From the NCBI GenBank assembly GCA_030066985.1, contig JASJAN010000013.1:1-64000 (forward strand): a DNA stretch of 64,000 nucleotides. The letters run 5' to 3'. How positions within the stretch are numbered: position 1 is the stretch's first letter; each line of letters starts with the position of its first letter. Shown one piece after another: positions 4,213 through 57,813 of the stretch. Both the position numbers and the translations under genes were made by a program. The notes beneath the pieces are model-generated. The model saw only the letters and a list, made by a program, of their open reading frames with translations. It was not told where the DNA came from and made no database searches. The DNA is from Desulfobacterales bacterium. GTDB taxonomy: Bacteria; Desulfobacterota; Desulfobacteria; Desulfobacterales; JAHEIW01.

Positions 4213-4467
4213 ATGGGAAGAGAAGAATTTAAAGCAAAAAAAATGAAAATCAAATTGAAAGCAAAAGATGGTAAGGTGGAATATGTACAAGGTGATAACC
4301 AACCGGTACCTGATTTAGATAAGCCGGATATCAGTCCCGCCGAGATAGAAGAACGGTTAAATGGTTTAGGTAATTTAAAGTACGTCGGAGCTATATTTCA
4401 TAGTCATTCAAGCCCCGGGTGAGTCTATTATTATTCAGGCGGCAGGTGTCGCCGGATCTGTTTTTAG
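4213..4467 (+). CDS. Small peptide with in-frame UGA, candidate Sec-containing peptide
   Basis: An excellent ribosome binding site (AAGGAGGTGAAGAA) precedes ATG 4213. The frame runs 69 codons, meets TGA at 4420-4422 and continues in frame for 14 codons to TAG at 4465-4467. If UGA is read as selenocysteine, the product is 84 residues: a charged Lys/Glu-rich N-terminal part (1-57), a hydrophobic/His/Ser stretch VGAIFHSHSSPG, Sec70, and then VYYYSGGRCRRICF with two cysteines. A hairpin with GGU in its loop lies 22 bases after the UGA, as expected for a bacterial SECIS element. A leader-like N-terminus and a short Cys/Sec-rich tail suggest a modified peptide (RiPP) precursor, but no maturase is adjacent. 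If UGA is a plain stop the product is 69 residues. The gene is probable; the readthrough is inference. Confidence 0.6.
4440..4454 (+). promoter_or_regulatory. Candidate bacterial SECIS hairpin
   Basis: Stem CGGC/GCCG closes the 7-nt loop AGGTGTC, which contains the GGU typical of bacterial SelB-binding hairpins. The loop GGU starts about 22 nt past the UGA at 4420, inside the usual window for bacterial SECIS elements. Confidence 0.5.
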
Positions 4468-4506
4468 AGCCCACACGTAAATGCAAATTGACAGTAGGCA
4501 CGTTAA

Positions 4507-4536
4507 AAAGGCAAGGCCGGAGATGGCCTTGCCTTT
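4507..4536. terminator. Bidirectional Rho-independent-like terminator
   Basis: The stem is AAAGGCAAGGCC / GGCCTTGCCTTT with a 6-nt loop (GGAGAT). It lies between the convergent Sec-peptide gene (plus) and lipoprotein gene (minus), with A/T-rich flanks on both sides. Confidence 0.75.
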
Positions 4537-4608
4537 AATTTGATCAGTATAGATTAGAAGTTTTGATTTTTGGATTAACAGCAGACCGCTGTTGAATTAT
4601 TAATTATT

Positions 4609-5022
4609 TCAGCCTCGCGGTATATAGCGTGTACGTCCTCCAGAGGTATACTGAAAGCAGTATGGACTATTTTCATAATGCACAATAGCTTCTGGACAGT
4701 ATTGATTTCCAGTACCCGATGCGGTTTTGGGAATAGGGATTTTTCCTTCTTCAACTGGTTTAATAGGTTCCTTATACTTCTCATCCGAGCAATCTTTAGT
4801 GATCCGATGGAATACCCTATCAGCGCACAAATTTCCTCCTCTTATAATTTCAATGTACGTAGGGGGATCTTTTTTTAAAAATTTACATTCTACAGTATTA
4901 TCGCCTGGAAGCAATTTTATTTTAATTGGTGGTTCTTCTGCTTCAACCCTATTCGATGCATGCGTGCAGCCCAAAGCAGCGATTAACAGCACGTAAAATA
5001 TCATGGATCTTCTTTTTAGCAT
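4609..5022 (-). CDS. Putative lipoprotein, function unknown
   Basis: The 137-residue product has a lipoprotein signal peptide: basic KRR start, a hydrophobic core, and the lipobox LIAALGC with the acylated Cys at about 19. The mature part has five further Cys residues in three places (ECKF; NLCADR with KDCSDE; QYCPEA with PYCFQ) that could form disulfides in the envelope, and it ends in GGRTRYIPRG. A strong ribosome binding site (AAAGGAGGATAAA) precedes the ATG. I do not recognise a family. It is convergent with the small Sec-candidate gene and shares its terminator region; the pairing may be accidental. Confidence 0.72.
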   Translation of the reverse strand: MLKRRSMIFYVLLIAALGCTHASNRVEAEEPPIKIKLLPGDNTVECKFLKKDPPTYIEIIRGGNLCADRVFHRITKDCSDEKYKEPIKPVEEGKIPIPKTASGTGNQYCPEAIVHYENSPYCFQYTSGGRTRYIPRG

Positions 5023-5159
5023 TTTATCCTCCTTTCGATATTCGCCTTAAAGTTTTTTAGAAAAATGGCTTAATGGATTGCTAAATGCTGTCTTAAGCTA
5101 TAGTTGTAAACGGTTTTAGCCACATTCCTTTCCTTCAAACATAAATGCAGTTCCGATTT

Positions 5160-29594: not shown

Positions 29595-30563
29595 ATGGTG
29601 TCCGATATGCCTGAGAAAACCAGAACAAAACGTTTTATCTATCCAACTCAGGGTGTTTGCCCACCTGAGATTCATTTTAAGCTTAACAACGACCATCTTG
29701 AGGAAATTCGTTTTGTGGGGGGTGGCTGCCCGGGCAACGCTCAGCTGGTGGCACGTCTTTTAGAAGGAAAACCATTGGCAGAAGCCTTGGAATACTTGAT
29801 CGGAATTGACTGTCGCAATGGAACATCCTGCCCCGATCAACTAGCCACTGCCCTAACTGCCGCTAAAAACGGCAACCTGAACCCCGCCGAATCTTTTCGA
29901 GTACATATAGATCCTGCCGACAGGGATCGGATCGGCCTGATCAGTGCTACAGATGGCAATCCCGTTATTTTACAGAAATTTATTGATCACACCCAAGCCA
30001 ACAGAATAGAGACACTTTATTGCGTTGGTAACTTGACCGGGAATTCTGATCAAAACAAAGCATTAATTCAGAAAATACGTCGACACAAAATGATAGCGAT
30101 CCAGGGGGAAAACGACTGGCGCTATGCCCAGGTTCAAGAACAAAAGAACATGCCGCCACTCGAACAAAAGCAAAGGGATTGGCTGCTGCGGTTGCCTCAG
30201 GTGCTGCGCTTTCAAATGAAGCAAAAAAAAGGGATTGTCTTTTTCGGCGATTACATTCAAGGACTACCCGATTATTCTGACTTTGAACCCTTTGCCCTGG
30301 AAATGAACATGGTGTGTGGATTGACCGATTTCATGCAGGATGAAACCGTTTTTCCGGCACTGGAGGCGATGGTACCCCAATTTCAAGCCGATATTATTAT
30401 TTTTAGCCAGCTCAAACGCTGGGGACATTGGCATATTGCCGGCAAAGACTTCATCAGTCTCGGGCCGGCTATGGACGCAAAGGGCCTATCCTGGGGTTTG
30501 CTGGAAGTTTCTGATGAATTGATCGAATTTAAGATCATGCAGGCTGAAATCCAAGGAGGATGA
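29595..30563 (+). CDS. TSCPD domain - degenerate metallophosphoesterase fusion
   Basis: The 322-residue product begins with a TSCPD domain (about 8-95): FIYPTQGVCPPEIHF, VGGGCPGNAQLVARLLEG and the hallmark NGTSCPDQL. The rest (about 110-322) resembles a YfcE-like metallophosphoesterase: LISATDGN replaces the usual S-D-x-H-G-N, VGNLTG replaces GD, and GEND replaces GNHD. Most metal ligands have therefore changed and catalysis is doubtful. A ribosome binding site for the next gene (AAGGAGGA) overlaps its 3' end. First gene of an operon with the Sec-thioredoxin and SMC-like genes. Confidence 0.75.
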   Translation: MVSDMPEKTRTKRFIYPTQGVCPPEIHFKLNNDHLEEIRFVGGGCPGNAQLVARLLEGKPLAEALEYLIGIDCRNGTSCPDQLATALTAAKNGNLNPAESFRVHIDPADRDRIGLISATDGNPVILQKFIDHTQANRIETLYCVGNLTGNSDQNKALIQKIRRHKMIAIQGENDWRYAQVQEQKNMPPLEQKQRDWLLRLPQVLRFQMKQKKGIVFFGDYIQGLPDYSDFEPFALEMNMVCGLTDFMQDETVFPALEAMVPQFQADIIIFSQLKRWGHWHIAGKDFISLGPAMDAKGLSWGLLEVSDELIEFKIMQAEIQGG

Positions 30564-30564
30564 T

Positions 30565-30861
30565 TTGACACAACCCGTGCTGGTGGATGTGCTATTGACC
30601 GATTTTCGCCAATGAGCGGCCTGCGTCTATATGGCGGAATCGGTAAAGGTTTTACCACAAGACATCCAAGACATCATCGAAGTGCATGAATGGGATTTGC
30701 GCACCCGTGAAGGGGTGCAGCGCTTTCGGGAACTGAAGGCCAAGTCCCTGCCCAGCGTTGCTTTGGATGGCGAACTGGTTTATGAATCCCTTATCCCCAT
30801 GCAGGAAGAGCTCATCGATGAAATTCGCAGACGGTATAAGGACAAGAATCAAAATGAATAA
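30565..30861 (+). CDS. Selenocysteine-containing thioredoxin-fold protein (UAAC motif)
   Basis: Reading from TTG 30565 (AAGGAGGA just upstream) the frame passes TGA at 30613-30615 and continues to TAA at 30861: 98 residues with Sec17. The active site reads DFRQ-U-A-A-C-VYMAESV. The paralogue at 50594 has SVQ-C-A-A-C-GYMMESI at the same position, so UGA replaces a redox Cys exactly. The C-terminal half keeps thioredoxin-fold features (LPSVALDGELVYESLIP, with the cis-Pro). A six-bp hairpin with loop GGU lies 33 bases after the UGA. If UGA were a stop, only an N-terminally truncated 76-residue protein from ATG 30631 would remain. Expected role: redox partner of corrinoid or methyltransferase proteins (inference). 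Confidence 0.85.
30642..30656 (+). promoter_or_regulatory. Candidate bacterial SECIS hairpin (GGU loop)
   Basis: GGTAAA-GGT-TTTACC is a perfect six-bp stem with a GGU triloop. The loop begins 33 nt past the UGA at 30613-30615, at the far end of the usual window. Confidence 0.6.
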
Positions 30862-36486: not shown

Positions 36487-37470
36487 ATGCAACGTTTTAA
36501 AAAAGAGCCAGAGATTTATGACGTCGGTGGAGTGAAAGTCGGCGGTCAGCCGGGAGAATACCCCACAGTCTGCTGCTTCTCCATTTTTCAGGAAAGCGAT
36601 AAGTTGTTTGACAAGGGCAGCCGCAGAAAAGGCTTTAATGAAAAGCGCGGAGAAGAATTGCTGAAAGGGGCCGAAAAACTGTGGAAGGAAACGGGAGTGC
36701 CCGTTATGGCTGACATTGTCGCCAGCCCGGGTGAAAAATTTAAAAAATATGTGGATTTTGTTTCCTCGGTAAGCGACATGCCTTTTTGCGTGGACGCCAT
36801 TATGATGCCGGCCAAACTGGAAGGCGCAGCCTATTGTGCCGAGAAGGGGCTGCTGGATCGGATGTTCTACAACAGCATTACCGTCTGGGAGGAAGACTTA
36901 GAAACGGAAGTCAAGGAATTAGCCCAGATAGGCGTCAAGCACGTCCTTCTGGTTGCCTTTGATCAGGATGATCAGACGCCCAATGGCAGGATTAAGGGCG
37001 CCCAAAAATTGCTCGATGCCATCGAAAAGGCCGACGCTAAATTTGAAAGCATCATTGTCGACACGACAACCCTCAATGCGCCCGCCAATGCGTTGTGCGG
37101 AATTTCGAATCAGTTAATAAAGGAAAAATGGGGTTTTGCGACCGCCAGTGCGCCCAGCAACGGTTCCTATATGGAATTGCAGCGGTTTAAGGATATGTTT
37201 GAATTTAAGGGTTGGGCCGGTTTTGATGCTGCTGTGGAAGCCCTTTCGGCATTTTATTACAACGATTTAATTTTTACCGGGCCCATGGCAGGTGCACCAC
37301 GGGTCGTATCAGCAGTTGCGGCGGCTGATGCATTTTTAGCCACCTCGGTTTTTAATGAAACCAAAGAGCTGCCCAAAGATCCAAACCATCCATTGCTCAA
37401 GCTGTTTCCGGAGTTTGCCGAACAGCTCAAGCTGGCCTGGGAAAAACCCAGTGACCTGGAAAAATTGTAG
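36487..37470 (+). CDS. mtrH: MtrH-family methyltransferase (methylcorrinoid:tetrahydropterin)
   Basis: The 327-residue TIM-barrel protein matches the methyltransferase subunit H family: an N-terminal KKEPEIYDVGGVKVGGQPGEYP, SIFQESDKLF, LFD-like EKLWKETGVPVMADIVAS, CVDAIMMPAKLEGAAYC and C-terminal IFTGPMAGAPRVVSAVAAADAF. In bacteria, stand-alone MtrH proteins pass methyl groups between methylcorrinoid and tetrahydrofolate. It has a strong ribosome binding site (AAAGGAGGTGGGCA). Its upstream region carries the shared regulatory module, and a terminator follows. It is the natural partner of the corrinoid methyltransferase genes at 44-50 kb. Confidence 0.9.
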   Translation: MQRFKKEPEIYDVGGVKVGGQPGEYPTVCCFSIFQESDKLFDKGSRRKGFNEKRGEELLKGAEKLWKETGVPVMADIVASPGEKFKKYVDFVSSVSDMPFCVDAIMMPAKLEGAAYCAEKGLLDRMFYNSITVWEEDLETEVKELAQIGVKHVLLVAFDQDDQTPNGRIKGAQKLLDAIEKADAKFESIIVDTTTLNAPANALCGISNQLIKEKWGFATASAPSNGSYMELQRFKDMFEFKGWAGFDAAVEALSAFYYNDLIFTGPMAGAPRVVSAVAAADAFLATSVFNETKELPKDPNHPLLKLFPEFAEQLKLAWEKPSDLEKL

Positions 37471-44323: not shown

Positions 44324-45400
44324 ATGGCTGAGCTGACTCCCATAGAACGAGTACAGCGATTTTTTAATCGTGAACCCGTAGACAAGATGCCATTTTTTTC
44401 TGGGATGGGTATGGTCCTGCTGCCTGCCATCAAAAAATTGGGCTACAACTTTCCATCGGTCCACCGGGATGCAGAGCGGATGGCTCGTTCTGCAATTGAA
44501 TCCGCCCGTATGTTCAATTTGGATTCTGTGGTGGTTCCCTTTGATATGTGCTGGGAATCCGAAGCCCTGGGTAATGAAATCAGTTTATACGAAGATTCGG
44601 AGGATATCCTTTATCCGACCATTCCTTATAAAAATTGGACGGAAGTGGATCAAGTCGAAATTTCCCAGGATGACATCGACAATATCATGGATAAATATCC
44701 AATGAATTTGATACCCGAGGCCATCGCGATTGTCAAAAAGGAAGCACCGGATCTGGCCCTGGGTGCCTGGCAATTGGGTCCCTTTACCCAGTGCGGCCAG
44801 ACCATTGAACTGGACAAGGTTCTGAAAGCGGTTTTCAAAGACACAGCCCGCGTAGAGGACATTCTGGACAAGCTTTCGGATATGATCATTAATATCGGAA
44901 AAGCACTCCAGGCTGCTGGAGCGGATTTTATCACATTGAGGGAGCCCGGGGTGGCTGCAGACCTTTTGAGTCCCAAGACCTTCAAGGAGATGATCGCACC
45001 TCGACTCACACGGATTTTGTCGGCCTGGGAGTCACCGAAAGTGTTGCATATTTGCGGTTCCACCGATCCGCTGGTGGAGATGATGTGGAAGATTGTGACT
45101 GACTCGGGCGCTCAGGCGGTCAGTTTCGACGTCAAAAACAATCTTTTAGAAGCACGTCAGAAATTAGGTGATGATGCCCTGATCCTCGGTAATTACGATG
45201 TTTTCGGACTACCCTGTGCGGAAGAAACAACCGTCGAGCAGGCTATTGAGGGTATCAGGACCAATATTGACGGCAAAGTCGATGCGGTCTGGCCGGGTTG
45301 CGATCTCTGGCCGGATATCAAAGAAGAAAACTTTAGGGCAATGGAAAAGACGGCCCGCGAGTATAATGTCGGACCGACACCAGCTGTTGGGCGGCTTTAA
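44324..45400 (+). CDS. UroD-family corrinoid methyltransferase (MtaA/CmuA-like)
   Basis: The 358-residue product belongs to the uroporphyrinogen-decarboxylase superfamily of zinc-dependent methyltransferases. The zinc motif appears as LHICGSTDPLV (His-x-Cys) and WPGCDLWPD (third ligand Cys) near the C-terminus. N-terminal TPIERVQRFFNREPVDKMP and an internal substrate-pocket pattern fit the family. It could move a methyl group between substrate or thiol and the corrinoid protein encoded 30 bases downstream. The methyl donor is unknown. Confidence 0.88.
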   Translation: MAELTPIERVQRFFNREPVDKMPFFSGMGMVLLPAIKKLGYNFPSVHRDAERMARSAIESARMFNLDSVVVPFDMCWESEALGNEISLYEDSEDILYPTIPYKNWTEVDQVEISQDDIDNIMDKYPMNLIPEAIAIVKKEAPDLALGAWQLGPFTQCGQTIELDKVLKAVFKDTARVEDILDKLSDMIINIGKALQAAGADFITLREPGVAADLLSPKTFKEMIAPRLTRILSAWESPKVLHICGSTDPLVEMMWKIVTDSGAQAVSFDVKNNLLEARQKLGDDALILGNYDVFGLPCAEETTVEQAIEGIRTNIDGKVDAVWPGCDLWPDIKEENFRAMEKTAREYNVGPTPAVGRL

Positions 45401-45430: not shown

Positions 45431-46102
45431 ATGCCGAGCAAAGAAGAATTATTGGAAGCACTGAAAGACGGTGTGATCAATTACAAAGAGGAACAGGTGA
45501 AGGAAGCCTCACAGCAGGCTGTTGATGATGGACTCCCGGCGCTAGAGATGATCATGGATGGTTTGGCTGCCGGAATGGAGGTCGTCGGAGATCTTTATGA
45601 ACGCCACGAATATTTTGTCCCCGAGGTGCTTATGTGCGCCGATGCCTTATATCTGGGTCTGGACATACTGCGACCCCATGTCCCCAAGACAGATGCAGGT
45701 TCGGTGGCGCAGGTGGTGATTGGCAGCATTCAGGGAGATGTGCACGACATCGGCAAAAATCTGGTTAAAATGATGTTTGATGTCGCCGGTTGGGAGGTTT
45801 ACGACCTTGGCCGGGATGTGCCCCTCGAGAATTTTGTGGAGGAGCAGTTGCGGACGGACGCCGAAGTCGTGGCCATGTCAGCCATGATGACGACGACCAT
45901 GCTGGGTATGAAAAAAGTGATCAAGATGATCAAAGATAAGAACCCGGATGTGGCCATCATGTTAGGCGGGGCGCCGGTGACCCAGGATGTCGCCAACCTA
46001 TTTGGTGCGGATGGATATGCCGAATCTGCCGGAAATGCGGTGGCGGAAGGCATCAAGATGATCGGTCGCCTGCGGGAATTTGAAAAAAAGAAGGAAGGAT
46101 AA
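45431..46102 (+). CDS. Corrinoid (B12-binding) methyl-carrier protein
   Basis: The 223-residue product has an N-terminal helical cap domain (about 1-90, VVGDLYERHEYFVPEVLMCADAL) and a Rossmann-like B12 domain (about 95-215) with the cobalt-ligating motif IQGDVHDIGKNLVKMM (D-x-H-x-x-G), AMSAMMTTTMLGM and MLGGAPVTQDVA. This is the MtmC/MtbC/MtaC type: it carries the methyl group on cobalt between methyltransferases. It is encoded between a UroD-family methyltransferase gene and a reactivase gene, likely in one operon. Confidence 0.94.
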   Translation: MPSKEELLEALKDGVINYKEEQVKEASQQAVDDGLPALEMIMDGLAAGMEVVGDLYERHEYFVPEVLMCADALYLGLDILRPHVPKTDAGSVAQVVIGSIQGDVHDIGKNLVKMMFDVAGWEVYDLGRDVPLENFVEEQLRTDAEVVAMSAMMTTTMLGMKKVIKMIKDKNPDVAIMLGGAPVTQDVANLFGADGYAESAGNAVAEGIKMIGRLREFEKKKEG

Positions 46103-46274: not shown

Positions 46275-48341
46275 ATGGGAGACAAGGATAACAACGCGAT
46301 GGTTATTTTTCAACCGTCCGGGCGAAGAGGAGAGGTGCCTAAGGGCATCAATTTGATAGAAGCGTCCCGGTTGCTAGGGGTGGACATCGAGGCCCTGTGC
46401 GGTGAAAAGAAAGTTTGTGGCAAGTGTAAAGTCCGCATCGAAGAAGGTCGTTTTGAGAAATACGGAATCGAGTCCCAAATGTCCAACGTGAGCGGCTGGC
46501 AGGAAGAGGAAGAAAAATTTATCGTCCCCAAAGAAAAAGAGACCGGTCATCGATTGGCCTGCGTCACTGAAATTCAGGGCGATCTTTTGGTCTTCGTGCC
46601 GGAGGAATCTCGCGCTGGCAAACAGGTGGTCAGCAAAGCGGCCCGAGACATTCATATTGAGCATAACCCGGCCGTAAGAATCTACACGGTAACAGTGGAA
46701 CCACCGACATTTGAAGAACCCACGGCGGATTTTGAACGCGTCTGCCGGGTACTGGAAAAAGAGCATGGGCTTAAGGATCTGGCGGTTGACATATTTGCCC
46801 TAAGGCAGTTGCCCGCGGCACTGCGTGACGGCGATTGGAGTGTGACGGTCAGTGTCTGGAACGACAAAGAAGTTGTGCGCTTCAGACCCGGTAAGGCCGA
46901 GAAAACTTACGGACTGGCGATCGATGTGGGCACCACCACCGTGGCGGCCTATTTTTGTGATCTGACCACGATGGAGGTCGTCGATACGGTCTCCATGATG
47001 AATCCGCAGTGCAAATATGGCGAGGACGTCATGGCGCGCATCACCTACCATATGACCTCCACCGATGGGCTGCAGCGCATGAACGATGACATCATCGAGG
47101 GACTGAACTCGTTGGTCGATAAGGCCATCCAGAACACCTATCCGCCCAAGAAGAAAATCAAGAAGAAGAAAGGTGAAGAAGGGCCGGATGAATTTGTGGA
47201 AGTGCCCGAGGAGGGCAAGACCTATCTGCGCCTGACCAAAGAAGATATTGAGGATGTGACCATTGGGGGTAACACCGCCATGCATCATATTTTTTTAAAT
47301 CTCAATCCCGAGCACGTGGGCCTGGCCCCTTTTCCCCCGGTGATCCATCACAGTCTGGATATCAAGGCGCGTGACATGGGCATCAACATCAATCCCGCTT
47401 CCTATGTATTTGTGCTTCCCAATGAAGCCGGATTTGTGGGGGCGGACAACGTCGGTGTGATGCTGGCCGAAGAGCCGTACAAAAAAGACGAAATCGCACT
47501 GATTATTGATATCGGCACCAATGGCGAGCTGGTGCTGGGGAACAAAGAGAAGTTGATCTCCTCTTCCTGTGCCACCGGTCCGGCCTTGGAGGGGGCCCAG
47601 ATTGCTTTCGGTATGCGGGCGGCGCCCGGGGCCATGGAACGGATCACCATTGATCCTGATACAAAAGAGGTGGATTATAAAGTCATCGGTCGAGATGCCT
47701 GGCGCAAATATTCGGAAGCCAAGGATATGAAGGCCAAAGGCATATGCGGTTCCGGTATTCTCGACCTGCTGTCCGAGCTTTACTGTGCTGGGGTGATTAT
47801 TAAAAGTGGCGCATTTAATAAAGAAGCCTTAGACGGACATCCCCGTTACCGATTAAATCCGGATACCAACCAGCCGGAATTTGTTCTGGCCTGGGCGGAG
47901 GAATCGAGCATCGATAAGGACATCGTGGTTACCCAAAAAGATGTCCGCCAGATTCAGCTGGCCAAAGGCGCCTTATATGCCGGCTGTAAGCTCATGATGC
48001 GACGCATGGGTATGGAGAAGGTGGATACGATCAAAATCGCCGGTGCCTTTGGCACCCATGTCGATCGGGAAAAGGCCCTGATTATGGGGCTTTTTCCGGA
48101 CTGCGAGATCGAAATGATCGAAAGTGTGGGTAATGCTGCCGGTGATGGATGTCGCGCGGCATTGTTAAATAAAGACAAGCGCAAGGAAGCCAACTGGGTA
48201 GCGCGTAATGTGGAATATATTGAGCTGACTGTCGAAGGCGACTTCCAGACCGAATTCATGGAGGCTATGCAGATACCGCATATGACGGACGAATTTCCAC
48301 ATCTGGCAGGTGTTGTTCCCGAGGAAATTCTAAAACAATAG
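46275..48341 (+). CDS. ASKHA-domain corrinoid reactivation ATPase (RamA/RACo-like)
   Basis: The 688-residue product has an N-terminal [2Fe-2S] ferredoxin-like domain (C42-x5-C48-x2-C51 with Cys96: EALCGEKKVCGKCKVRI, HRLACVTE) and a long C-terminal ATPase domain of the acetate/sugar kinase/Hsp70/actin type (DUF4445-like): AIDVGTTTVAAYFCDL, IIDIGTNGELVLGNKEKL, IKIAGAFGTHVDREKA. Such proteins use ATP hydrolysis to reduce Co(II) corrinoid back to Co(I). A Lys-rich insertion (KKKIKKKKGEEGPDEF) sits near residue 296. It is in the methyltransferase operon, so it services the corrinoid protein encoded upstream. Confidence 0.92.
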   Translation: MGDKDNNAMVIFQPSGRRGEVPKGINLIEASRLLGVDIEALCGEKKVCGKCKVRIEEGRFEKYGIESQMSNVSGWQEEEEKFIVPKEKETGHRLACVTEIQGDLLVFVPEESRAGKQVVSKAARDIHIEHNPAVRIYTVTVEPPTFEEPTADFERVCRVLEKEHGLKDLAVDIFALRQLPAALRDGDWSVTVSVWNDKEVVRFRPGKAEKTYGLAIDVGTTTVAAYFCDLTTMEVVDTVSMMNPQCKYGEDVMARITYHMTSTDGLQRMNDDIIEGLNSLVDKAIQNTYPPKKKIKKKKGEEGPDEFVEVPEEGKTYLRLTKEDIEDVTIGGNTAMHHIFLNLNPEHVGLAPFPPVIHHSLDIKARDMGININPASYVFVLPNEAGFVGADNVGVMLAEEPYKKDEIALIIDIGTNGELVLGNKEKLISSSCATGPALEGAQIAFGMRAAPGAMERITIDPDTKEVDYKVIGRDAWRKYSEAKDMKAKGICGSGILDLLSELYCAGVIIKSGAFNKEALDGHPRYRLNPDTNQPEFVLAWAEESSIDKDIVVTQKDVRQIQLAKGALYAGCKLMMRRMGMEKVDTIKIAGAFGTHVDREKALIMGLFPDCEIEMIESVGNAAGDGCRAALLNKDKRKEANWVARNVEYIELTVEGDFQTEFMEAMQIPHMTDEFPHLAGVVPEEILKQ

Positions 48342-48342
48342 A

Positions 48343-48693
48343 TTGCGGTGCACCTTGGCTTCTCAAAAACCGAAATGGATATGTGTAACAGTTGAACCGG
48401 GCATCTGCGGCTTTGCGTGTGTTATCAAGGCCCGCAAAACAGGTGCTCGCCAGGTTTCGCTCGAAATTACCGGTTCGGATTGCGAGCAGATTCAAAGACT
48501 GGCCGAGCGCCTAACAACTTTATCGATTAAAGAGCTTTTCACACCGCTGAGCCGCAATCCGGTTTATGTCGCAACTGAAAAGTCGGGCTGCCACCTGTCC
48601 TGTGCGATTCCGGCGGCGATCATCAAAGTGGCTGAAGTGGCGCTGGAGCTGGCACTTCCGCAGGAAGTTCATATCAAATTCGAAGCGTGTTAG
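48343..48693 (+). CDS. Small conserved Cys-containing protein, function unknown
   Basis: The 116-residue product (TTG start at 48343, or the TTG at 48355) has paired Cys (WICVTVEPGICGFACVIKA; GCHLSCAIPAAIIK; FEAC at the end) and no signal peptide. It directly follows the reactivase gene and precedes the DUF2284 gene by overlap of the tail, so it belongs to the same operon. Cys pattern suggests metal or Fe-S binding. I do not recognise a named family with certainty. Confidence 0.65.
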   Translation: MRCTLASQKPKWICVTVEPGICGFACVIKARKTGARQVSLEITGSDCEQIQRLAERLTTLSIKELFTPLSRNPVYVATEKSGCHLSCAIPAAIIKVAEVALELALPQEVHIKFEAC

Positions 48694-48707
48694 GAGTGCA
48701 ACAAGTA

Positions 48708-49304
48708 ATGCCTAAATCAAAAGTGGTACCGTTTAAAGCCGGTGAAGGTATTTCTCAGGCCTTAACCGAACGCCTGCTGGAAAAAGGCCGGTCTTATGGC
48801 CTCAATGCAATATTCCCGTTCAGTATCGATAAAATAAAGGTAGCCGAATGGGTCCATCTGAAATGCCGTTACGGCTGTAACCAGTATAATACGAACTGGT
48901 GCTGCCCCCCGGCCACACCGGATCCGGATAAAGTTCGTGCGATTCTGTCTGAGTATTCCACCGCGTTGCTTCTGGTGGGAACCACCAATTGTTCGGACTT
49001 TTACATGAACAATGAACGCAAGCGAACCTCTCAAGTTCGCTGCTGGAAGGGTACCATCAGCCTGGAGCGCATGTTGTTTCTTGAGGGCTATTACAAGGCG
49101 TTTAGTCTTGTAGGGGAGTGCTGCGCGCTTTGTAAGGAATGCGCATACCCGGATGATTGCCGGTTTCCGCAGGAAAAGAGACCGTCGGTGGAATCATTTT
49201 CCATTGATGTCATTGGCACCTTAAAAAATTTGGGAACGACTTCAACGGTTGCCGCCAAAACATGTGAAACCTACAGCTACTACGGCATAATTCTTTTAGA
49301 ATAA
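48708..49304 (+). CDS. DUF2284-type metal-binding protein
   Basis: The 198-residue product shows the DUF2284 Cys pattern: HLKCRYGCNQYNTNWCCPPATPDPDKV and GECCALCKECAYPDDCRFPQ. These cysteines probably bind zinc or an iron-sulfur cluster. GGAG lies ahead of ATG 48708; an in-frame GTG at 48687 would give a few more residues. It sits in the methyltransferase operon. Specific activity unknown. Confidence 0.82.
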   Translation: MPKSKVVPFKAGEGISQALTERLLEKGRSYGLNAIFPFSIDKIKVAEWVHLKCRYGCNQYNTNWCCPPATPDPDKVRAILSEYSTALLLVGTTNCSDFYMNNERKRTSQVRCWKGTISLERMLFLEGYYKAFSLVGECCALCKECAYPDDCRFPQEKRPSVESFSIDVIGTLKNLGTTSTVAAKTCETYSYYGIILLE

Positions 49305-49531: not shown

Positions 49532-50566
49532 ATGGCCAAACAATTGTTGATCGACGCCTATCGGGGGAAAAGAACGGAAAAGCCACCCTGGGTGCCATAC
49601 GCAGGGGTTCACTGCGCCTTTTTGATCAATGAACCTGCTGACAAAATGCTACAGGATCCCGAACTGCTGGCGAAAGGAGTCGTTAATGCCGCCAAGAGAT
49701 ACAAAGCGGACGGGATTCCTCTGGTATTCGATCTTTCCGTCGAAGCCAATTCCATTGGTTGTGACCTGAAATGGTGGCCCGACAATGTACCCTCTGTTAC
49801 GAATCACCCCTGTTCCGATAAGACTCCCAAAGATGCCGGGCTCCAAATGCCCACCAAAGAATCGGGTCGTTGGCCGGTGCTTTATGAAGCCGCCAGAATT
49901 GCCAAACCCCAACTGGATGAACTCGATTGCGTCTTTATGGGTCTTTTTTGCGGTCCTTTGACCCTGGCTTCCCATCTGGCCGGTGTGCGCATCTTTACCG
50001 ATGTTTACAAGAATCCAGAATTTGCCGCCGATGTGATCAAATTTGCCGGTGAAGTCGGCGCGGAAGCTGCAAAGTTCTATGCCGAAATGGGTGCAGAGAT
50101 AATTGCCATCGTCGATCCGGTGGCCTCCCAGATTAAATCCGAGACCTTCCAGCAATTTGTCACCCCCAATTCGCAACCCGCCATTAAAGCGATTCATGAT
50201 GCCGGAGCGACCTCATCATTTTTCATTTGTGGCGACTGTACCAAAGTCATGGAAGATGTCTGTAAGATTGGTACCCACGGTTTTGCCATTGATGAACAGC
50301 TCAATATGAATTTTGTGAGGGACCTGGCGCGCAAACACGGGGTTGGCTTTGGCGGCAATCTAAAGCTGACGCTGGCCCTGAGCCTCGGATTGTTGTCTCC
50401 CCGAGAGGATGCGATTGTCAGCTTGGCTGCAGGTGGGCAAGAAGGTTATACCTTCGCCCCTGGCTGAGATATGCCTTACGATGTTCCGGTGGAACATATG
50501 GATCAGGCAATCGAAGCCAAAGAATGGTTTGAACAATATTATGCCAAGTATCCGGAATCTTGGTAA
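49532..50566 (+). CDS. Selenocysteine-containing UroD-family methyltransferase
   Basis: The frame from ATG 49532 (ribosome binding site AAGAAAGGAG) meets TGA at 50465-50467 and continues 32 codons to TAA at 50564-50566. With Sec312 the protein is 344 residues and its end reads FAPG-U-DMPYDVPVEHMDQ. In the paralogue at 44324 the same place is WPG-C-DLWPDIKEE, the third zinc ligand of this methyltransferase family, so Sec replaces a metal-binding Cys. The other motif is FFICGDCT, where the usual His of HxC is Phe. A perfect seven-bp hairpin with loop GGU begins 13 bases after the UGA. If UGA were a stop, the protein would lose its zinc ligand and 32 residues. Substrate unknown. Confidence 0.88.
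50481..50497 (+). promoter_or_regulatory. Candidate bacterial SECIS hairpin (GGU loop)
   Basis: ATGTTCC-GGT-GGAACAT is a perfect seven-bp stem with a GGU triloop. The loop lies about 21 nt past the UGA. This is the strongest SECIS-like element in the window. Confidence 0.75.
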
Positions 50567-50593: not shown

Positions 50594-50995
50594 ATGGCAG
50601 ACAAAATTACCATTGATGTTCTGACACTGGACAGTGTGCAGTGCGCTGCCTGCGGCTACATGATGGAGTCCATAGCCGCCTTGCCATCTGATGTACAGGA
50701 TATGATCGTATACAAAGAGTGGTCGATCAAAAACAAAGACGGCATCGGCAAGTTTATGGAGCTTCAGGGTAAAGTGTTGCCGACCATCTGTATCGAGCGG
50801 GATCTGGTTTTTGAGAGTATCATTCCGCAATATGAGGAATTGATCGATGAGATGGCCAAACGGGCGCCCAATGACGACATGCGTGATCGTATCCAGTCCC
50901 TGCGCGAAAAAGGATTTGAGTTCGATAAAATTCAGGAGAATCTGAAAAAAGCAGGCGCCGGGTTGGCGACACGCACCGATTCCAAAGTCGAATGA
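50594..50995 (+). CDS. Thioredoxin-fold protein with CAAC active site
   Basis: The 133-residue product reads DSVQ-C-A-A-C-GYMMESIAALPSD near residue 17 and keeps the thioredoxin-fold C-terminal half (LPTICIERDLVFESIIPQYEELIDEM), followed by a helical tail. It is the cysteine paralogue of the UAAC protein at 30565. It begins 27 bases after the Sec methyltransferase, with AAAGGAGG upstream, so it is co-transcribed and could reduce or deliver to that enzyme. A terminator follows. Confidence 0.85.
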   Translation: MADKITIDVLTLDSVQCAACGYMMESIAALPSDVQDMIVYKEWSIKNKDGIGKFMELQGKVLPTICIERDLVFESIIPQYEELIDEMAKRAPNDDMRDRIQSLREKGFEFDKIQENLKKAGAGLATRTDSKVE

Positions 50996-51725: not shown

Positions 51726-51971
51726 ATGAAAGTCGAAGTATTAGGGCCCGGCTGCAAGCGCTGTGACCAGTTGTATGAAAACGCCCAAAATGCGGTGGCC
51801 GAATTGGATTCCCCAGGGGATATCGAAGTTATAAAAATAGGAGATGTCAATTACTTTGCCAAAATGGGGGTGTTCATGACACCAGGGCTGGTGATTGATG
51901 GCGAGGTGATTTCAACCGGCAAAGTGCTGAGCCCCAACCAAATCAAGCAAAAGATTACGGAGAAGATGTAA
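51726..51971 (+). CDS. Small thioredoxin-like redox-active disulfide protein
   Basis: The 81-residue product reads MKVEVLGPGCKRCDQLYENAQ, a CxxC redox site at residues 10-13, and keeps the cis-Pro region (MTPGLVIDGEVISTGKVLS). This fits the small thioredoxin-like 'redox-active disulfide' family common in anaerobes. It lies four bases before the CobW-type gene, so they are probably co-transcribed. Confidence 0.87.
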   Translation: MKVEVLGPGCKRCDQLYENAQNAVAELDSPGDIEVIKIGDVNYFAKMGVFMTPGLVIDGEVISTGKVLSPNQIKQKITEKM

Positions 51972-51974
51972 AGC

Positions 51975-53009
51975 ATGTCCGATGTCACCCGTGTATATTT
52001 GATTACCGGTTTTTTAGGCAGTGGTAAGACCACCTTTCTGAATCGCATTATTCAGCAGTTTCCCAAGGATAAAAAACTGACCCTGCTGGTTAATGAATTT
52101 GGTGAAGTTGGCGTGGATGGTACCCTGGTGGAAGGCGATGATATTGATATGATGGAAATCAGCAAGGGCTCGATTTTCTGCGTTTGTGTCAAAACCGATT
52201 TTATAAAAGGTCTTTATGAGCTCAACACCAAAATACAACCGGATGTAATGCTGATAGAATCAACGGGTGTGGCTAACCCCTCTGATTTAAAAAGAGATTT
52301 GAAACTGCCCATATTTAATGACCGCTTTGAATTCATGGAACAATTTTGCGTGATCGATGCGGCCCACTTTCTAGATGCTTACGGCGTCTATGCCTCTTTG
52401 GAAAAACAGATTGCTTCTTCCACTGTATTTATCATGAATAAGATTGATAACGCCTCGCCGGAAACGATCCAGGAAACGAAAAATGTTATTCGGCAGTTTC
52501 ATCCCGATCCCTCATTTTTTGACACGACCTACGCCGACATCCCCTTGGAAGAATTTTTTGATTTCGCCGTTCAGGAACCATTTGAAACACTAGCACCGGA
52601 ACCCGAAAAGGCAGCAATGCCTGTTCTTTCGGAGAATGCCCTGGACCAATTTATTGATGATCTCCTGGACAGCCCGGATCTTGAAATTACGCCGCCAGAT
52701 ACGCTCATGTCTGTGACCTATTCCTGGAACGGAAATGATCTGAAGCAGATCAGCGCCTTGGCAGAGGCTTTGCCGCCTTCAGTTATCAGAGCCAAAGGAT
52801 TTGTGGAAGAAAAAGGGGATATGTATTTATTCAGCTATGTCATGGGCGATTGGTCCATGGAAAAAACCAAAGTGCCCAGGGATCGCATCAAACACAAAAA
52901 CATGGTTGTTTTTATCGGTCCGCCCGAATCGATGGAAGGCATCGAAGAGGCGTCCAAAACAGGTGATTGGACTGGCAAGGGCGTGTTTCAACCGTACACG
53001 CAATCCTGA
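51975..53009 (+). CDS. CobW/HypB/UreG-family GTPase, copy 2
   Basis: The 344-residue product has Walker A LITGFLGSGKTTFLNR, NEFGEVGVDGTLVEG, the metal motif in FCVCVKTDF (a CxC in place of the usual CxCC), and NKID (IMNKIDN). The C-terminal CobW domain (VTYSWNGNDLKQISALAEALPPSVIRAKGFV) follows. It shows only moderate similarity to the first copy at 33034, and the reduced metal motif suggests a different cargo. It is next to thioredoxin-like and TrxB-like genes. Confidence 0.87.
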   Translation: MSDVTRVYLITGFLGSGKTTFLNRIIQQFPKDKKLTLLVNEFGEVGVDGTLVEGDDIDMMEISKGSIFCVCVKTDFIKGLYELNTKIQPDVMLIESTGVANPSDLKRDLKLPIFNDRFEFMEQFCVIDAAHFLDAYGVYASLEKQIASSTVFIMNKIDNASPETIQETKNVIRQFHPDPSFFDTTYADIPLEEFFDFAVQEPFETLAPEPEKAAMPVLSENALDQFIDDLLDSPDLEITPPDTLMSVTYSWNGNDLKQISALAEALPPSVIRAKGFVEEKGDMYLFSYVMGDWSMEKTKVPRDRIKHKNMVVFIGPPESMEGIEEASKTGDWTGKGVFQPYTQS

Positions 53010-53075: not shown

Positions 53076-54002
53076 ATGTCTGAAAACCCTTATGACTTGA
53101 TGATATTGGGTGCAGGGCCCGCCGGTATTGCGGCCGCATTATACGGACAACGCCTGGGATTAAAAACAATAGTTTTTGGCGATATACCGGGGGGCAGTTC
53201 GTATATGATCGAACATCTGGCGAATTTCCCCGGACTGATGGAAGGGGCTACCGGCACGCAGTTTGGCACGAGGGCATTCCAGCAGGCCCAGAAAGAAGGG
53301 GCTAACTTTACATTGACGCGTTTGGAAAACTTCAGCCATAAGGATAATGTCTTTGTCGGTGTCGATGTTGATGGCAACGAATATACGGCTTGGAGCGCAA
53401 TTGTTGCCACCGGGCGGGTGCCCAAAAGATTGGCGGTTGCCAATGCCACTTTAAGAGGCGTTCATTTTTGTTCGATTTGTGACGGTCCTTTATACAGAGG
53501 GAAAAATGCCACCCTGGCGGTTGTCGGCAGCGATAATACTGCTGCCCAGCATGCGATCACCCTCGCTCGGACTGCCGATAAAGTTCTTCTCATCTGCCGC
53601 AGCAATACCCTTAAAATGGATGCCGTTCATAAAGACCAGATCGAGGAGCAAAGCAATATTACCTTGATGACAGACACGGAGGTTTGCGGATACGACGGTC
53701 AGGAGTTTGTCGAAACGATTGCGGTGGCATCAAAGGAAAAAGGACAGCAGGACTTGGCGGTTGATGGGATTTTCCTCGCCATCGGATGGCGGCCGAACAT
53801 ATCGGTACTTAAACTGGAGGTTGAAAAAACGGCAGAAGGCTATCTGGTTACCAATGATCAACTCATGACATCAGTTCCCGGGCTTTTTGCAGCCGGTGAC
53901 ATACGGGACACCGATATGTGGCAGGTGCTGACCGCCTGTGCCGATGGTGCCCGGACTGCCAAATATGCAGCCGAATATCTAGAAAAATTAAACCAAGCCT
54001 AA
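53076..54002 (+). CDS. Thioredoxin reductase-like FAD/NAD(P) oxidoreductase
   Basis: The 308-residue product is a TrxB-type flavoprotein: FAD motif LMILGAGPAGIAAALYGQRLG, redox-active FCSICDG (CxxC), NAD(P) site LAVVGSDNTAAQHA and C-terminal GLFAAGDIRDTDMWQVLTACADGA. It probably keeps the neighbouring thioredoxin-fold proteins reduced. AAAGGA precedes the ATG. The NAD(P) motif GSDNTA departs from the usual GGGxSA. Confidence 0.88.
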   Translation: MSENPYDLMILGAGPAGIAAALYGQRLGLKTIVFGDIPGGSSYMIEHLANFPGLMEGATGTQFGTRAFQQAQKEGANFTLTRLENFSHKDNVFVGVDVDGNEYTAWSAIVATGRVPKRLAVANATLRGVHFCSICDGPLYRGKNATLAVVGSDNTAAQHAITLARTADKVLLICRSNTLKMDAVHKDQIEEQSNITLMTDTEVCGYDGQEFVETIAVASKEKGQQDLAVDGIFLAIGWRPNISVLKLEVEKTAEGYLVTNDQLMTSVPGLFAAGDIRDTDMWQVLTACADGARTAKYAAEYLEKLNQA

Positions 54003-56198: not shown

Positions 56199-56205
56199 CA
56201 ATCAG

Positions 56206-56502
56206 ATGGCTGCTGACAAAATTCACCTGGAGGTCTTCCACGAAGGCGAGCACTGAGTCCCCTGTGTTTACATGACCCGTGTGGTCGAAGCGGTAGCGTT
56301 AGAATATGGCGACAGCTTGAACTGGGAAAAAATTGTCACCAAGGATTTAGCGGGTGCTAAGAGATACCAAGATTTTTCAAAGGCCCTCGGCAGACCGGCG
56401 CCCGTCCCCTGCATTGTCATAGAGGGCAAGCTGGTTTTTGACGCTACGCCCAGCACCGAGGCGTTAAAAGCCTGTATCGATCGATTTTTAAAAACGGCTT
56501 GA
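56206..56502 (+). CDS. Selenocysteine-containing thioredoxin-fold protein (UVPC motif)
   Basis: The frame from ATG 56206 passes TGA at 56254-56256 and continues to TGA at 56500-56502: 98 residues with Sec17. The active site is EGEH-U-V-P-C-VYMTRVV, aligned with UAAC (30565), CAAC (50594) and CLPC (55848), each followed by xYM. The back half (VPCIVIEGKLVFDATPSTEAL) fits the fold. The UGA sits at codon 17 in both Sec members. A short hairpin with G-U in its loop follows. No strong ribosome binding site is visible; translation may couple to the upstream CLPC gene. If UGA is a stop, only a 76-residue fragment from ATG 56272 remains. Confidence 0.82.
56273..56287 (+). promoter_or_regulatory. Candidate SECIS hairpin
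   Basis: TGACC / GGTCG (one T-G wobble) closes loop CGTGT, 22 nt past the UGA. It is weaker than the GGU-loop elements. Confidence 0.4.
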
Positions 56503-56514
56503 ACCACTGCAGAT

Positions 56515-57813
56515 TTATTTTTTTGTGGCATCGGCCGCGTATTCCTTCAAAAGCTCGGATATGGCCTTACTAACTTTTAAGTGATCTTCTGAACCCAGCG
56601 GAAAGGACGGGCCGCGATCCATTATTTTTTCTTCCTGAACAATTTGAATCTTGACCACCGGGATAAAGCTGGCATCCCATTGTTCCAGGCCGATGGATAC
56701 TTGATAGCCGGTACCGGGTGGATGCGGCAGGCTGGCCGGGACCGTTTTTGAAATCTGCGGGAAAAACGATTCCACCGGCTCTGCCTCAAGTGGCACGCAG
56801 GATACGCCCTTACCCTGCTTGATTTGTTCAAAGCAGTTATTGCATGAAATGCATTCTGCCTCCAGTAAATCGCCGGCCTTCCAACGATTAATCAGGTCGG
56901 GATCCCGGATAAATGGGCGTGACATGGAAATATAATCGGCCACGCCGTCTTCTAAAAGACGCGTGGCAACCGCTAAAGATCTTATGCCACCGACCAGGAT
57001 CAACGGGACCGTGATTTTTCCCTTAAAGGCCCGGGCCTCATTCTCAAAATAAGCTTCGACCGCATCCGTATCTATTTTACTCTGCATGATATTCGGATTG
57101 TTTAAGAGCCCGCCGCTTAATTCAATCGCATCAATTCCTTCTTCCTCGAGCATCATCCCCACCTGCAGAGAATCTTCCAAAGTAAGGCCGTTCTCGACGA
57201 AATCCTGGCAATTGAGTTTCACCAAAACCGGATAGTCTTCACCGGTGTGATGACGGACGGACTGCAGGACTTCCAAAAGCGCTCTGGCGCGATTGCGGAT
57301 ATTGCCGCCGTATGCATCGCTGCGGTCGTTATAGCGGGGGCAGAGCAGCTGGCTCAGAAAAAATCCGTGGGCTGCAAAAATCTGCACACCGTCGAAACCC
57401 GCTGTTTTGGCTCTCATCGCAGCGATGCCGTAGGCGGCAGCCAGCTCTTTATAATCGACAACGGTCATTTTCCTGATCCGCGATTTCGACAGGTAGGCGC
57501 CGCCATACCCCAGCTGTAAGACAATCTTAGCGCCGTTTTCATGGACTGCTTGCGTCACGGCCTTAAGCCCAGGGATCATCTCATCATTGTGAATACCCAA
57601 CTGCCAGGGAGAGTGCTGCCCATCCGGGCGAACATAGGCATGGCCGGTTATAATCAGCCCGACACCGCCGGCCGCCAGTCTTGCCATTAAATCAACTAAT
57701 TTGGAAGTGCTGGCACCATCATCCGATGCCAGACCTGCCCAGGTTGCCGAGCGTACAAATCGGTTGTCTAACACCATGCCATTTATTTCGCTTTGTTCAA
57801 AAAACCTCGTCAT
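56515..57813 (-). CDS. Old-yellow-enzyme-type NADH:flavin oxidoreductase
   Basis: The 432-residue product has an FMN-binding TIM barrel (VRSATWAGLASDDGASTSKLV, AAHGFFLSQLLCPRYNDRSDAYGG, DFVENGLTLED, VGGIRSLAVATRLL, SMSRPFIRDPDLINRWK) and a Cys-rich stretch CISCNNCFEQ expected to hold an Fe-S cluster, as in enoate reductases. It lacks the long C-terminal FAD/NADPH domain, so it is a shortened member. It shares the A of TAATG with cobO upstream. Confidence 0.87.
   Translation of the reverse strand: MTRFFEQSEINGMVLDNRFVRSATWAGLASDDGASTSKLVDLMARLAAGGVGLIITGHAYVRPDGQHSPWQLGIHNDEMIPGLKAVTQAVHENGAKIVLQLGYGGAYLSKSRIRKMTVVDYKELAAAYGIAAMRAKTAGFDGVQIFAAHGFFLSQLLCPRYNDRSDAYGGNIRNRARALLEVLQSVRHHTGEDYPVLVKLNCQDFVENGLTLEDSLQVGMMLEEEGIDAIELSGGLLNNPNIMQSKIDTDAVEAYFENEARAFKGKITVPLILVGGIRSLAVATRLLEDGVADYISMSRPFIRDPDLINRWKAGDLLEAECISCNNCFEQIKQGKGVSCVPLEAEPVESFFPQISKTVPASLPHPPGTGYQVSIGLEQWDASFIPVVKIQIVQEEKIMDRGPSFPLGSEDHLKVSKAISELLKEYAADATKK

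Follow-up and report, generated by a model that had tools for sequence, protein, structure and literature searches.

The window analyzed here, a stretch of 64,000 nucleotides from a Desulfobacterales genome (GenBank assembly GCA_030066985.1, contig JASJAN010000013.1, positions 1 to 64,000), contained on its forward strand a gene at 49532-50566 with a single in-frame TGA at 50465-50467, codon 312. By the standard code the ORF stopped at 50467 and encoded 311 amino acids; past the TGA the frame stayed open for 32 codons, as the initial annotation had described, and then ended in a TAA. With the TGA read as selenocysteine, the product was a UROD-superfamily protein of 344 amino acids containing the motifs Phe231-x-Cys233 and Pro-Gly-Sec312-Asp, the codon for Cys233 lying at 50228-50230. 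The perfect 7-bp hairpin with a GGU loop that had been noted within 30 bases of the TGA was found at 50481-50497 on the same strand (AUGUUCC-GGU-GGAACAU, 7 bp with a 3-nt loop). It resembled bacterial SECIS elements, and its stem began 13 nt past the UGA.

The neighboring genes were also on the forward strand. Upstream were an MtaA-like UROD paralog with His-x-Cys and PG-Cys-D motifs (44324-45400), a B12-binding corrinoid protein (45431-46102; matches to the TIGR02370 and MtgC models, both below cut-off), a RACo-type corrinoid reductive activase (46275-48341), a DUF6951 protein (48343-48693), and a DUF2284 predicted metal-binding protein (48687-49304). Immediately downstream was a thioredoxin-like protein with the motif QCAACGYM (50594-50995), followed by a small thioredoxin (51726-51971; PF13192, and TIGR00412 of the MTH895/ArsE family, over cut-off), a CobW-type GTPase (51975-53009), and a thioredoxin-reductase-like flavoprotein (53076-54002; TIGR01292 at 256 bits, below the cut-off of 343). 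An MtrH-family protein was encoded at 36487-37470. It shared 66% identity with the MtrH/MtgA-like protein that related loci have upstream of the selenocysteine gene, and our guess is that it is linked to this cluster, though it lies 7 kb upstream of 44324. The corresponding protein of one related locus (L053) was over the cut-off of an MtrH-family model, with its MtgA match below cut-off.

Assignment of the protein to the UROD family, as first proposed, was supported by a PF01208 match of 164.7 bits against a cut-off of 23.9. The MtaA/CmuA model TIGR01463 gave 133.3 bits, and its cut-off of 235.4 was not reached. Chains of MtaA and UROD headed the fold matches. An AlphaFold2 model from a 21-row alignment (pLDDT 87.8, pTM 0.90, with residues 277-281 below 50 and the block 311-320 at 75) had the MtaA structure 4ay8 as its best structural match (Z 37.4, 2.4 Å over 324 residues). 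In the alignment to 4ay7, Phe231 matched the histidine and Cys233 the cysteine of the HIC motif, while Sec312 matched the cysteine of the APGC motif; we take these three residues of MtaA to be its zinc ligands. The comparison with the paralog at 44324 that the initial annotation had drawn also held: the UGA aligned with the third presumed zinc-ligand cysteine of the paralog (PGCD versus PG-U-D), and FFICG replaced LHICG, with Phe in place of the usual His.

Residue 231 was Phe in 58 of the 59 selenocysteine forms compared and Leu in one, and it was Phe in all six cysteine forms, while Cys233, Glu255, His148, and Asp195 were invariant in all 65 members. Cys236, in the CGDC motif, was rejected as a general replacement ligand, since among the 59 selenocysteine forms 32 had Cys at this position and 27 had Ala. 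One zinc ligand of MtaA thus appears to have been lost, with Cys233 and Sec312 kept where MtaA binds zinc, presumably at the catalytic site; the geometry and any metal are predictions from the alignment. Phe or Leu, Cys, and Sec therefore occupied the place of the His-Cys-Cys set that excerpts of PMC10418091 state as the rule for S-methyltransferases of the UROD superfamily.

Homologs were sought by scanning 84,980 species genomes with six short query peptides, which yielded 59 related loci. One of the peptides came from the tail (KEWFEQYY) and none spanned codon 312, so the scan found close relatives and perhaps slightly favored those that keep the tail. All 55 of the loci that reached codon 312 had TGA there; the other four ended earlier. 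These 55 loci were 68-98% identical and included Bacillota (L061, L062, L070, and L075). Searches of genomes from the phylum and class used the whole protein as query. Matches were found in 11 of the 395 genomes of the phylum, and eight of the 11, the window's own genome included, had the TGA; the others were an ortholog with TGT (G330) and distant homologs with TGC (G306 and G014). In the class, 35 of 291 genomes matched and 30 of these had the TGA, again including the window's own genome. The remainder were G624, whose ortholog had TGC, and four further genomes with distant forms; the codon was read in two of these, as TGT in G494 and TGC in G547, and not in G578 and G642. The phylum, class, and 59-locus sets overlap in part, and their counts are not independent.

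The column of codon 312 was occupied by selenocysteine (59) or cysteine (6) in all 65 aligned members of the subfamily. The six cysteines, which account for every non-TGA form read, belonged to two close orthologs and four distant homologs. Both genomes with a cysteine ortholog, G330 and G624, contained selB and tRNA-Sec, so the cysteine orthologs do not follow loss of the selenocysteine system. In a tree of 71 rows, the 59 selenocysteine rows and two cysteine rows formed one clade, in which the cysteine row L110 was beside the selenocysteine row L085, and the four distant cysteine forms fell outside; several outer branches were long, and the program flagged those joins as unsure.

The tail was alignable in 55 proteins, from the window and 54 full-length loci, and pN/pS was 0.186 before the TGA, 0.248 after it, and 0.221 after it when the hairpin codons were left out (1431 pairs from 54 sequences, excluding L070, in which the selenocysteine position is shifted). 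An open tail by itself is weak evidence for selenocysteine, because 14 of the 35 ORFs in the window of at least 100 amino acids that end in TGA (spurious ORFs included) also had at least 32 open codons beyond it; conservation across loci is decisive. Two of these 35 ORFs were followed by a perfect 7-bp hairpin with a loop of 3-8 nt at a distance of 12-45 nt, counted from the T of the TGA, and only one of the 35 had both the tail and the hairpin. Such a hairpin occurred in 146 of 20,000 random 33-nt draws from the window.

The strongest synonymous constraint in the gene was located at the hairpin. Codons 317-322, beneath it, had a pS of 0.09 against a median of 0.758, and the six-codon windows at 317 and 318 were the lowest of 335, as computed from 300 of the 1431 sequence pairs. 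Among 156 conserved columns with a choice of codon, the only ones using a single codon were V318, P319, and E321, all inside the stem. Standard pairs made up 93.2% of the pair cells in 38 sequences, picked from 63 TGA-bearing sequences, and at most 57.1% when the partner strand was slid. Covariation was modest, with a double change in two of the seven pairs; with the partner strand slid by +2 the covariation score was higher than in the true register, with one more pair type, and RNAalifold kept only four pairs. In single-sequence folding z was -3.1 for 50455-50520, and two shorter stretches scored -1.6 and -0.6. The hairpin was different or weaker in three selenocysteine loci (L084, L085, and L087). 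In the cysteine ortholog L088 pairing was possible only between GUUC and GAAC and was absent from the predicted fold, and the cysteine ortholog L110 had no such hairpin. No SECIS match was found in Rfam, where the sole match was a sub-threshold L19 leader, and this search was dismissed as uninformative. The codon usage and pairing show a hairpin that is under selection and SECIS-like.

The host genome encoded selA, selB, a tRNA-Sec (anticodon tca), and a selD that likewise contained a TGA. At an E value of 1e-60, selB was found in 41 of 43 related genomes. The two UGA genomes in which it was not found at this threshold, G470 and G592, both had tRNA-Sec and a TGA-containing selD, and we therefore take the absence of selB as a putative assembly gap.

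The conserved TGA, the cysteine homologs, the selected hairpin, and the complete selenocysteine machinery strongly support the proposal of the initial annotation, and it is virtually certain that UGA312 encodes selenocysteine. The initial annotation had also named findings that would argue against it, and these were not encountered: homologs kept the tail rather than ending without the 32 downstream residues, the column was never without Cys or Sec, and the genome was not without selB and tRNA-Sec. Readthrough of the UGA as some other amino acid would account for the open frame beyond it, but is very improbable given the cysteine in all six non-TGA forms read, the selection on the hairpin, and a genome whose selenocysteine machinery includes a TGA-containing selD. 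Equally improbable is a true stop, which agrees with the end of the standard-code ORF at 50467 and would leave a functional 311-amino acid product with a relic tail; it was rejected because the TGA and the tail are conserved, and it also conflicts with tail-keeping orthologs that have a cysteine codon and with the synonymous constraint directly beneath the hairpin.

Further TGA-containing genes of this class were also present in the window. A second selenoprotein gene, at 56203-56529 on the forward strand with its UGA at 56254, encoded a thioredoxin-like protein with a HUVPC motif that belongs to a known family (NF047660 at 146.6 bits, cut-off 105). A third, likely selenoprotein gene, at about 30550-30860 on the same strand with its UGA at 30613, was also thioredoxin-like, with the motif TDFRQ-U-AACVYM; 23 TGA readings of paralogs of this type were spread over 20 of the searched loci.

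Neighbor conservation was counted as the number of loci with a match among those whose sequence reached far enough. The thioredoxin-like gene was next to the selenocysteine gene in 52 of 54 loci. The first position of its CxxC motif was Cys in all 57 readings (L110 and L112-L115 included); the sole TGA reading at a similar distance, in L038, was from another thioredoxin-like paralog located upstream. In all four of the distant cysteine homologs that were read (L089, L090, L112, and L113), the UROD protein continued at its C-terminal end into a fused thioredoxin-like domain containing CAAC. The fusion proteins were 446-452 amino acids long and had Cys in the selenocysteine column. In L113 the fused domain passed the cut-off of Pfam Thioredoxin_3, whereas its match in L112 fell short; the domain was 33% identical to the thioredoxin-like protein of the window. 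The adjacency of the genes and their fusion in the distant cysteine forms are good evidence that the UROD and thioredoxin-like proteins work together. The thioredoxin-like protein itself had no match in PHROGs, and its sequence matches in PDB (pentatricopeptide proteins and one alpha-solenoid design, from about residue 74) were judged compositional. A single-sequence structure of the fused protein L113 was discarded (pLDDT 38).

The CobW-type GTPase gene was near in 38 of 44 loci within 3 kb and in 31 of 32 within 7.5 kb. Less constant were the genes for the DUF6951 protein (31/43), the corrinoid protein (23/31), the RACo activase (22/33), the MtaA-like paralog (19/31), the DUF2284 protein (26/46), the thioredoxin-reductase-like protein (20/36), and the MtrH-like protein (17/31). 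Three loci (L052, L057, and L058) had further ORFs in common behind the CobW gene; these were Hdr-like in L058, the only one of the three scanned. Near the distant form L113 were genes for a BCCT transporter and for a methyltransferase of the MttB family, and MtmB- and MttB-family genes were near the selenocysteine form in L068. An MttB partner was rejected as a rule, since MttB-like genes were present in only four of the loci examined (L113, L065, L068, and L078) and none was in the window. The selenoprotein is therefore accompanied by varied substrate methyltransferases, which would suit a second methyltransferase of the MtaA/MtbA type or a helper as much as a substrate-specific enzyme.

The explanation that best accounts for these data as a whole, with a probability of roughly 0.7, is a UROD-fold selenoprotein of corrinoid methyl transfer with a Cys233/Sec312 site coupled to thioredoxin. 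SelB would decode UGA312 as selenocysteine with the help of the hairpin just behind it, as the conservation suggests. Going by the family names of the neighbors, methyl groups would pass between a substrate or thiol and the cognate corrinoid protein, the RACo-type activase would keep this protein in the Co(I) state, and the MtrH-like enzyme would link the corrinoid methyl groups to tetrahydrofolate. Cys233 and Sec312 would form a soft-metal site or else act as a thiol/selenol pair that the thioredoxin-like protein, adjacent or fused, keeps reduced; behind this protein a thioredoxin-reductase-like or Hdr-like enzyme may stand. As a guess, the substrate could be a methylated compound of sulfur, selenium, or a metalloid. 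A role in corrinoid methyl transfer is likely, though the missed MtaA/CmuA cut-off, the presence of corrinoid and activase genes near many but not all loci, and the varying neighbors count against the explanation as a whole.

Two readings of the active site were given equal odds, each falling somewhat short of an even chance. In the first, Sec312 and Cys233, together with a third ligand that would be new, would coordinate zinc or some other soft metal, and thiols or selenols would be activated in the manner of MtaA; selenium would then tune the metal site, and the thioredoxin would serve only as a protective reductant. Both residues align with cysteines of MtaA that, with its His, presumably bind zinc; the conserved Glu255 and His148 are further candidate ligands; and the almost constant CobW-type GTPase belongs to a family tied to metal delivery. 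Against a metal site are the loss of the His in nearly all selenocysteine and all cysteine forms, contrary to the His-Cys-Cys rule in the excerpts of PMC10418091, and the thioredoxin fusion, which it leaves without explanation.

Alternatively, the site may be free of metal, with Cys233 and Sec312 joined in a selenenylsulfide during turnover and the thioredoxin-like partner reducing this bond, so that methyl transfer would be coupled to a reductive step, somewhat as in selenoenzymes of the glycine reductase type. The lost His, the adjoining or fused thioredoxin-like protein, the thioredoxin-reductase-like genes, and the Hdr-like genes of L058 (with related, unscanned ORFs in L052 and L057) fit this reading, as does CdmB, a UROD-superfamily methyltransferase that works without zinc according to the excerpts of PMC13222342. 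However, 16 of the 36 loci had no thioredoxin-reductase-type gene within the searched range, and two cysteines near a lost ligand are no proof of a disulfide. Thus, of the initial proposal that selenocysteine is a zinc ligand, the homology to a zinc-ligand position of MtaA stood, and Sec312 may be such a ligand, but without the His and with a thioredoxin-like partner the site suits a metal-free redox role equally well. A rather doubtful extension is that a UROD-fold methyltransferase has swapped its catalytic zinc for a Cys-Sec pair driven by its own, sometimes fused, thioredoxin, and that it links methyl transfer in the corrinoid system with a reduction or with the breaking of methyl-metalloid or methyl-selenium bonds. 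If true, this would be a corrinoid chemistry for which no description was found in the literature examined.

Among characterized proteins, MtaA, the methylcobalamin:coenzyme M methyltransferase (4ay7/4ay8), shares the UROD fold and the HIC and APGC cysteines matching Cys233 and Sec312. It differs in that its identity to the window protein is 23-25%, its His and second Cys are replaced by Phe and Sec, the host of the selenoprotein is not a methanogen, and a thioredoxin-like partner is present. MtaA-like proteins likewise go together with an activase and a corrinoid protein in the Sdm methyl-selenide system (PMC11097638) and in Type 1 mlp gene clusters (PMC10418091), and according to excerpts of both papers such sets often occur in anaerobes that use selenocysteine. 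In these excerpts, however, the MtaA-like proteins are stated to have His-Cys-Cys, save for several Mlps1, and selenocysteine in MtaA-like proteins, thioredoxin fusion, and a CobW partner are not mentioned. CdmB, a chloromethane methyltransferase, is similar as a zinc-independent corrinoid methyltransferase of the UROD superfamily whose partners are a corrinoid protein and a second methyltransferase, but its cavity is described as mainly aromatic, and the words thioredoxin and selenocysteine are absent from the text of PMC13222342. The selenoproteins of NF041536 (arsenite methyltransferase/DUF2284), NF045648 (MbdU), and NF047660 (HUIPC thioredoxin-like) are matched weakly by the DUF2284 and thioredoxin-like genes of the cluster, and are not UROD proteins.

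The gene at 49532-50566 very probably encodes a conserved selenium-containing relative of B12-linked methyl-transfer enzymes, and its carriers are mainly sulfate reducers. Carriers recorded under a species name include Desulfatitalea alkaliphila (L033), Desulfospira joergensenii (L051), and Desulfotomaculum copahuensis (L061). Table 1 of an inventory from 2026, which covers 119 families of prokaryotic selenoproteins (PMC13188914), had no UROD or MtaA-type entry, and the deep-Sep list of new selenoproteins likewise had none of this kind in its Table 3 (PMC12013277). No model of a UROD selenoprotein in NCBIfam 20.0 matched. The words UroD, MtaA, and uroporphyrinogen were absent from the texts of PMC9312934, PMC12013277, PMC5029168, and PMC8318568, the last of which places 34 putative selenoproteins in supplements outside this text comparison. 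The best reading is a new selenoprotein family, a putative thioredoxin-coupled corrinoid methyltransferase, with an earlier mention possible in unsearched papers or supplements. Corrinoid methyl transfer thereby gains a likely selenoprotein family, and as the metal site of the superfamily is well studied, the role of selenium can be addressed where the active site is already known, using the natural Cys and Sec orthologs as controls. The standard-code reading would end the protein at residue 311 and lose a probable catalytic residue, and Phe-Cys-Sec is a departure from the His-Cys-Cys residues on which substrate prediction in the superfamily relies.

Several other genes were observed in these genomes. 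MIP-type channel genes were near the selenocysteine gene in two loci (L061:9780-10907 and L029:10104-11285); the channel in L061 was fused to a domain matching the ArsE-type thioredoxin model below cut-off, and five loci had a related ORF, which was scanned in two of them. MtmB is known for pyrrolysine encoded by UAG, and the MtmB-family gene near the selenocysteine gene in L068 (L068:1158-2576) was open over its full length with no in-frame TAG. Nine MttB-family genes were found on two host contigs (C24 and C32), none with an internal stop, and it is therefore likely that the host organism has several corrinoid methyltransferase systems. In L061, an ORF at 4329-5072, near two corrinoid protein genes and the selenocysteine gene, matched positions 34-270 of the 468-position model of MbdU, a double selenoprotein, below cut-off.
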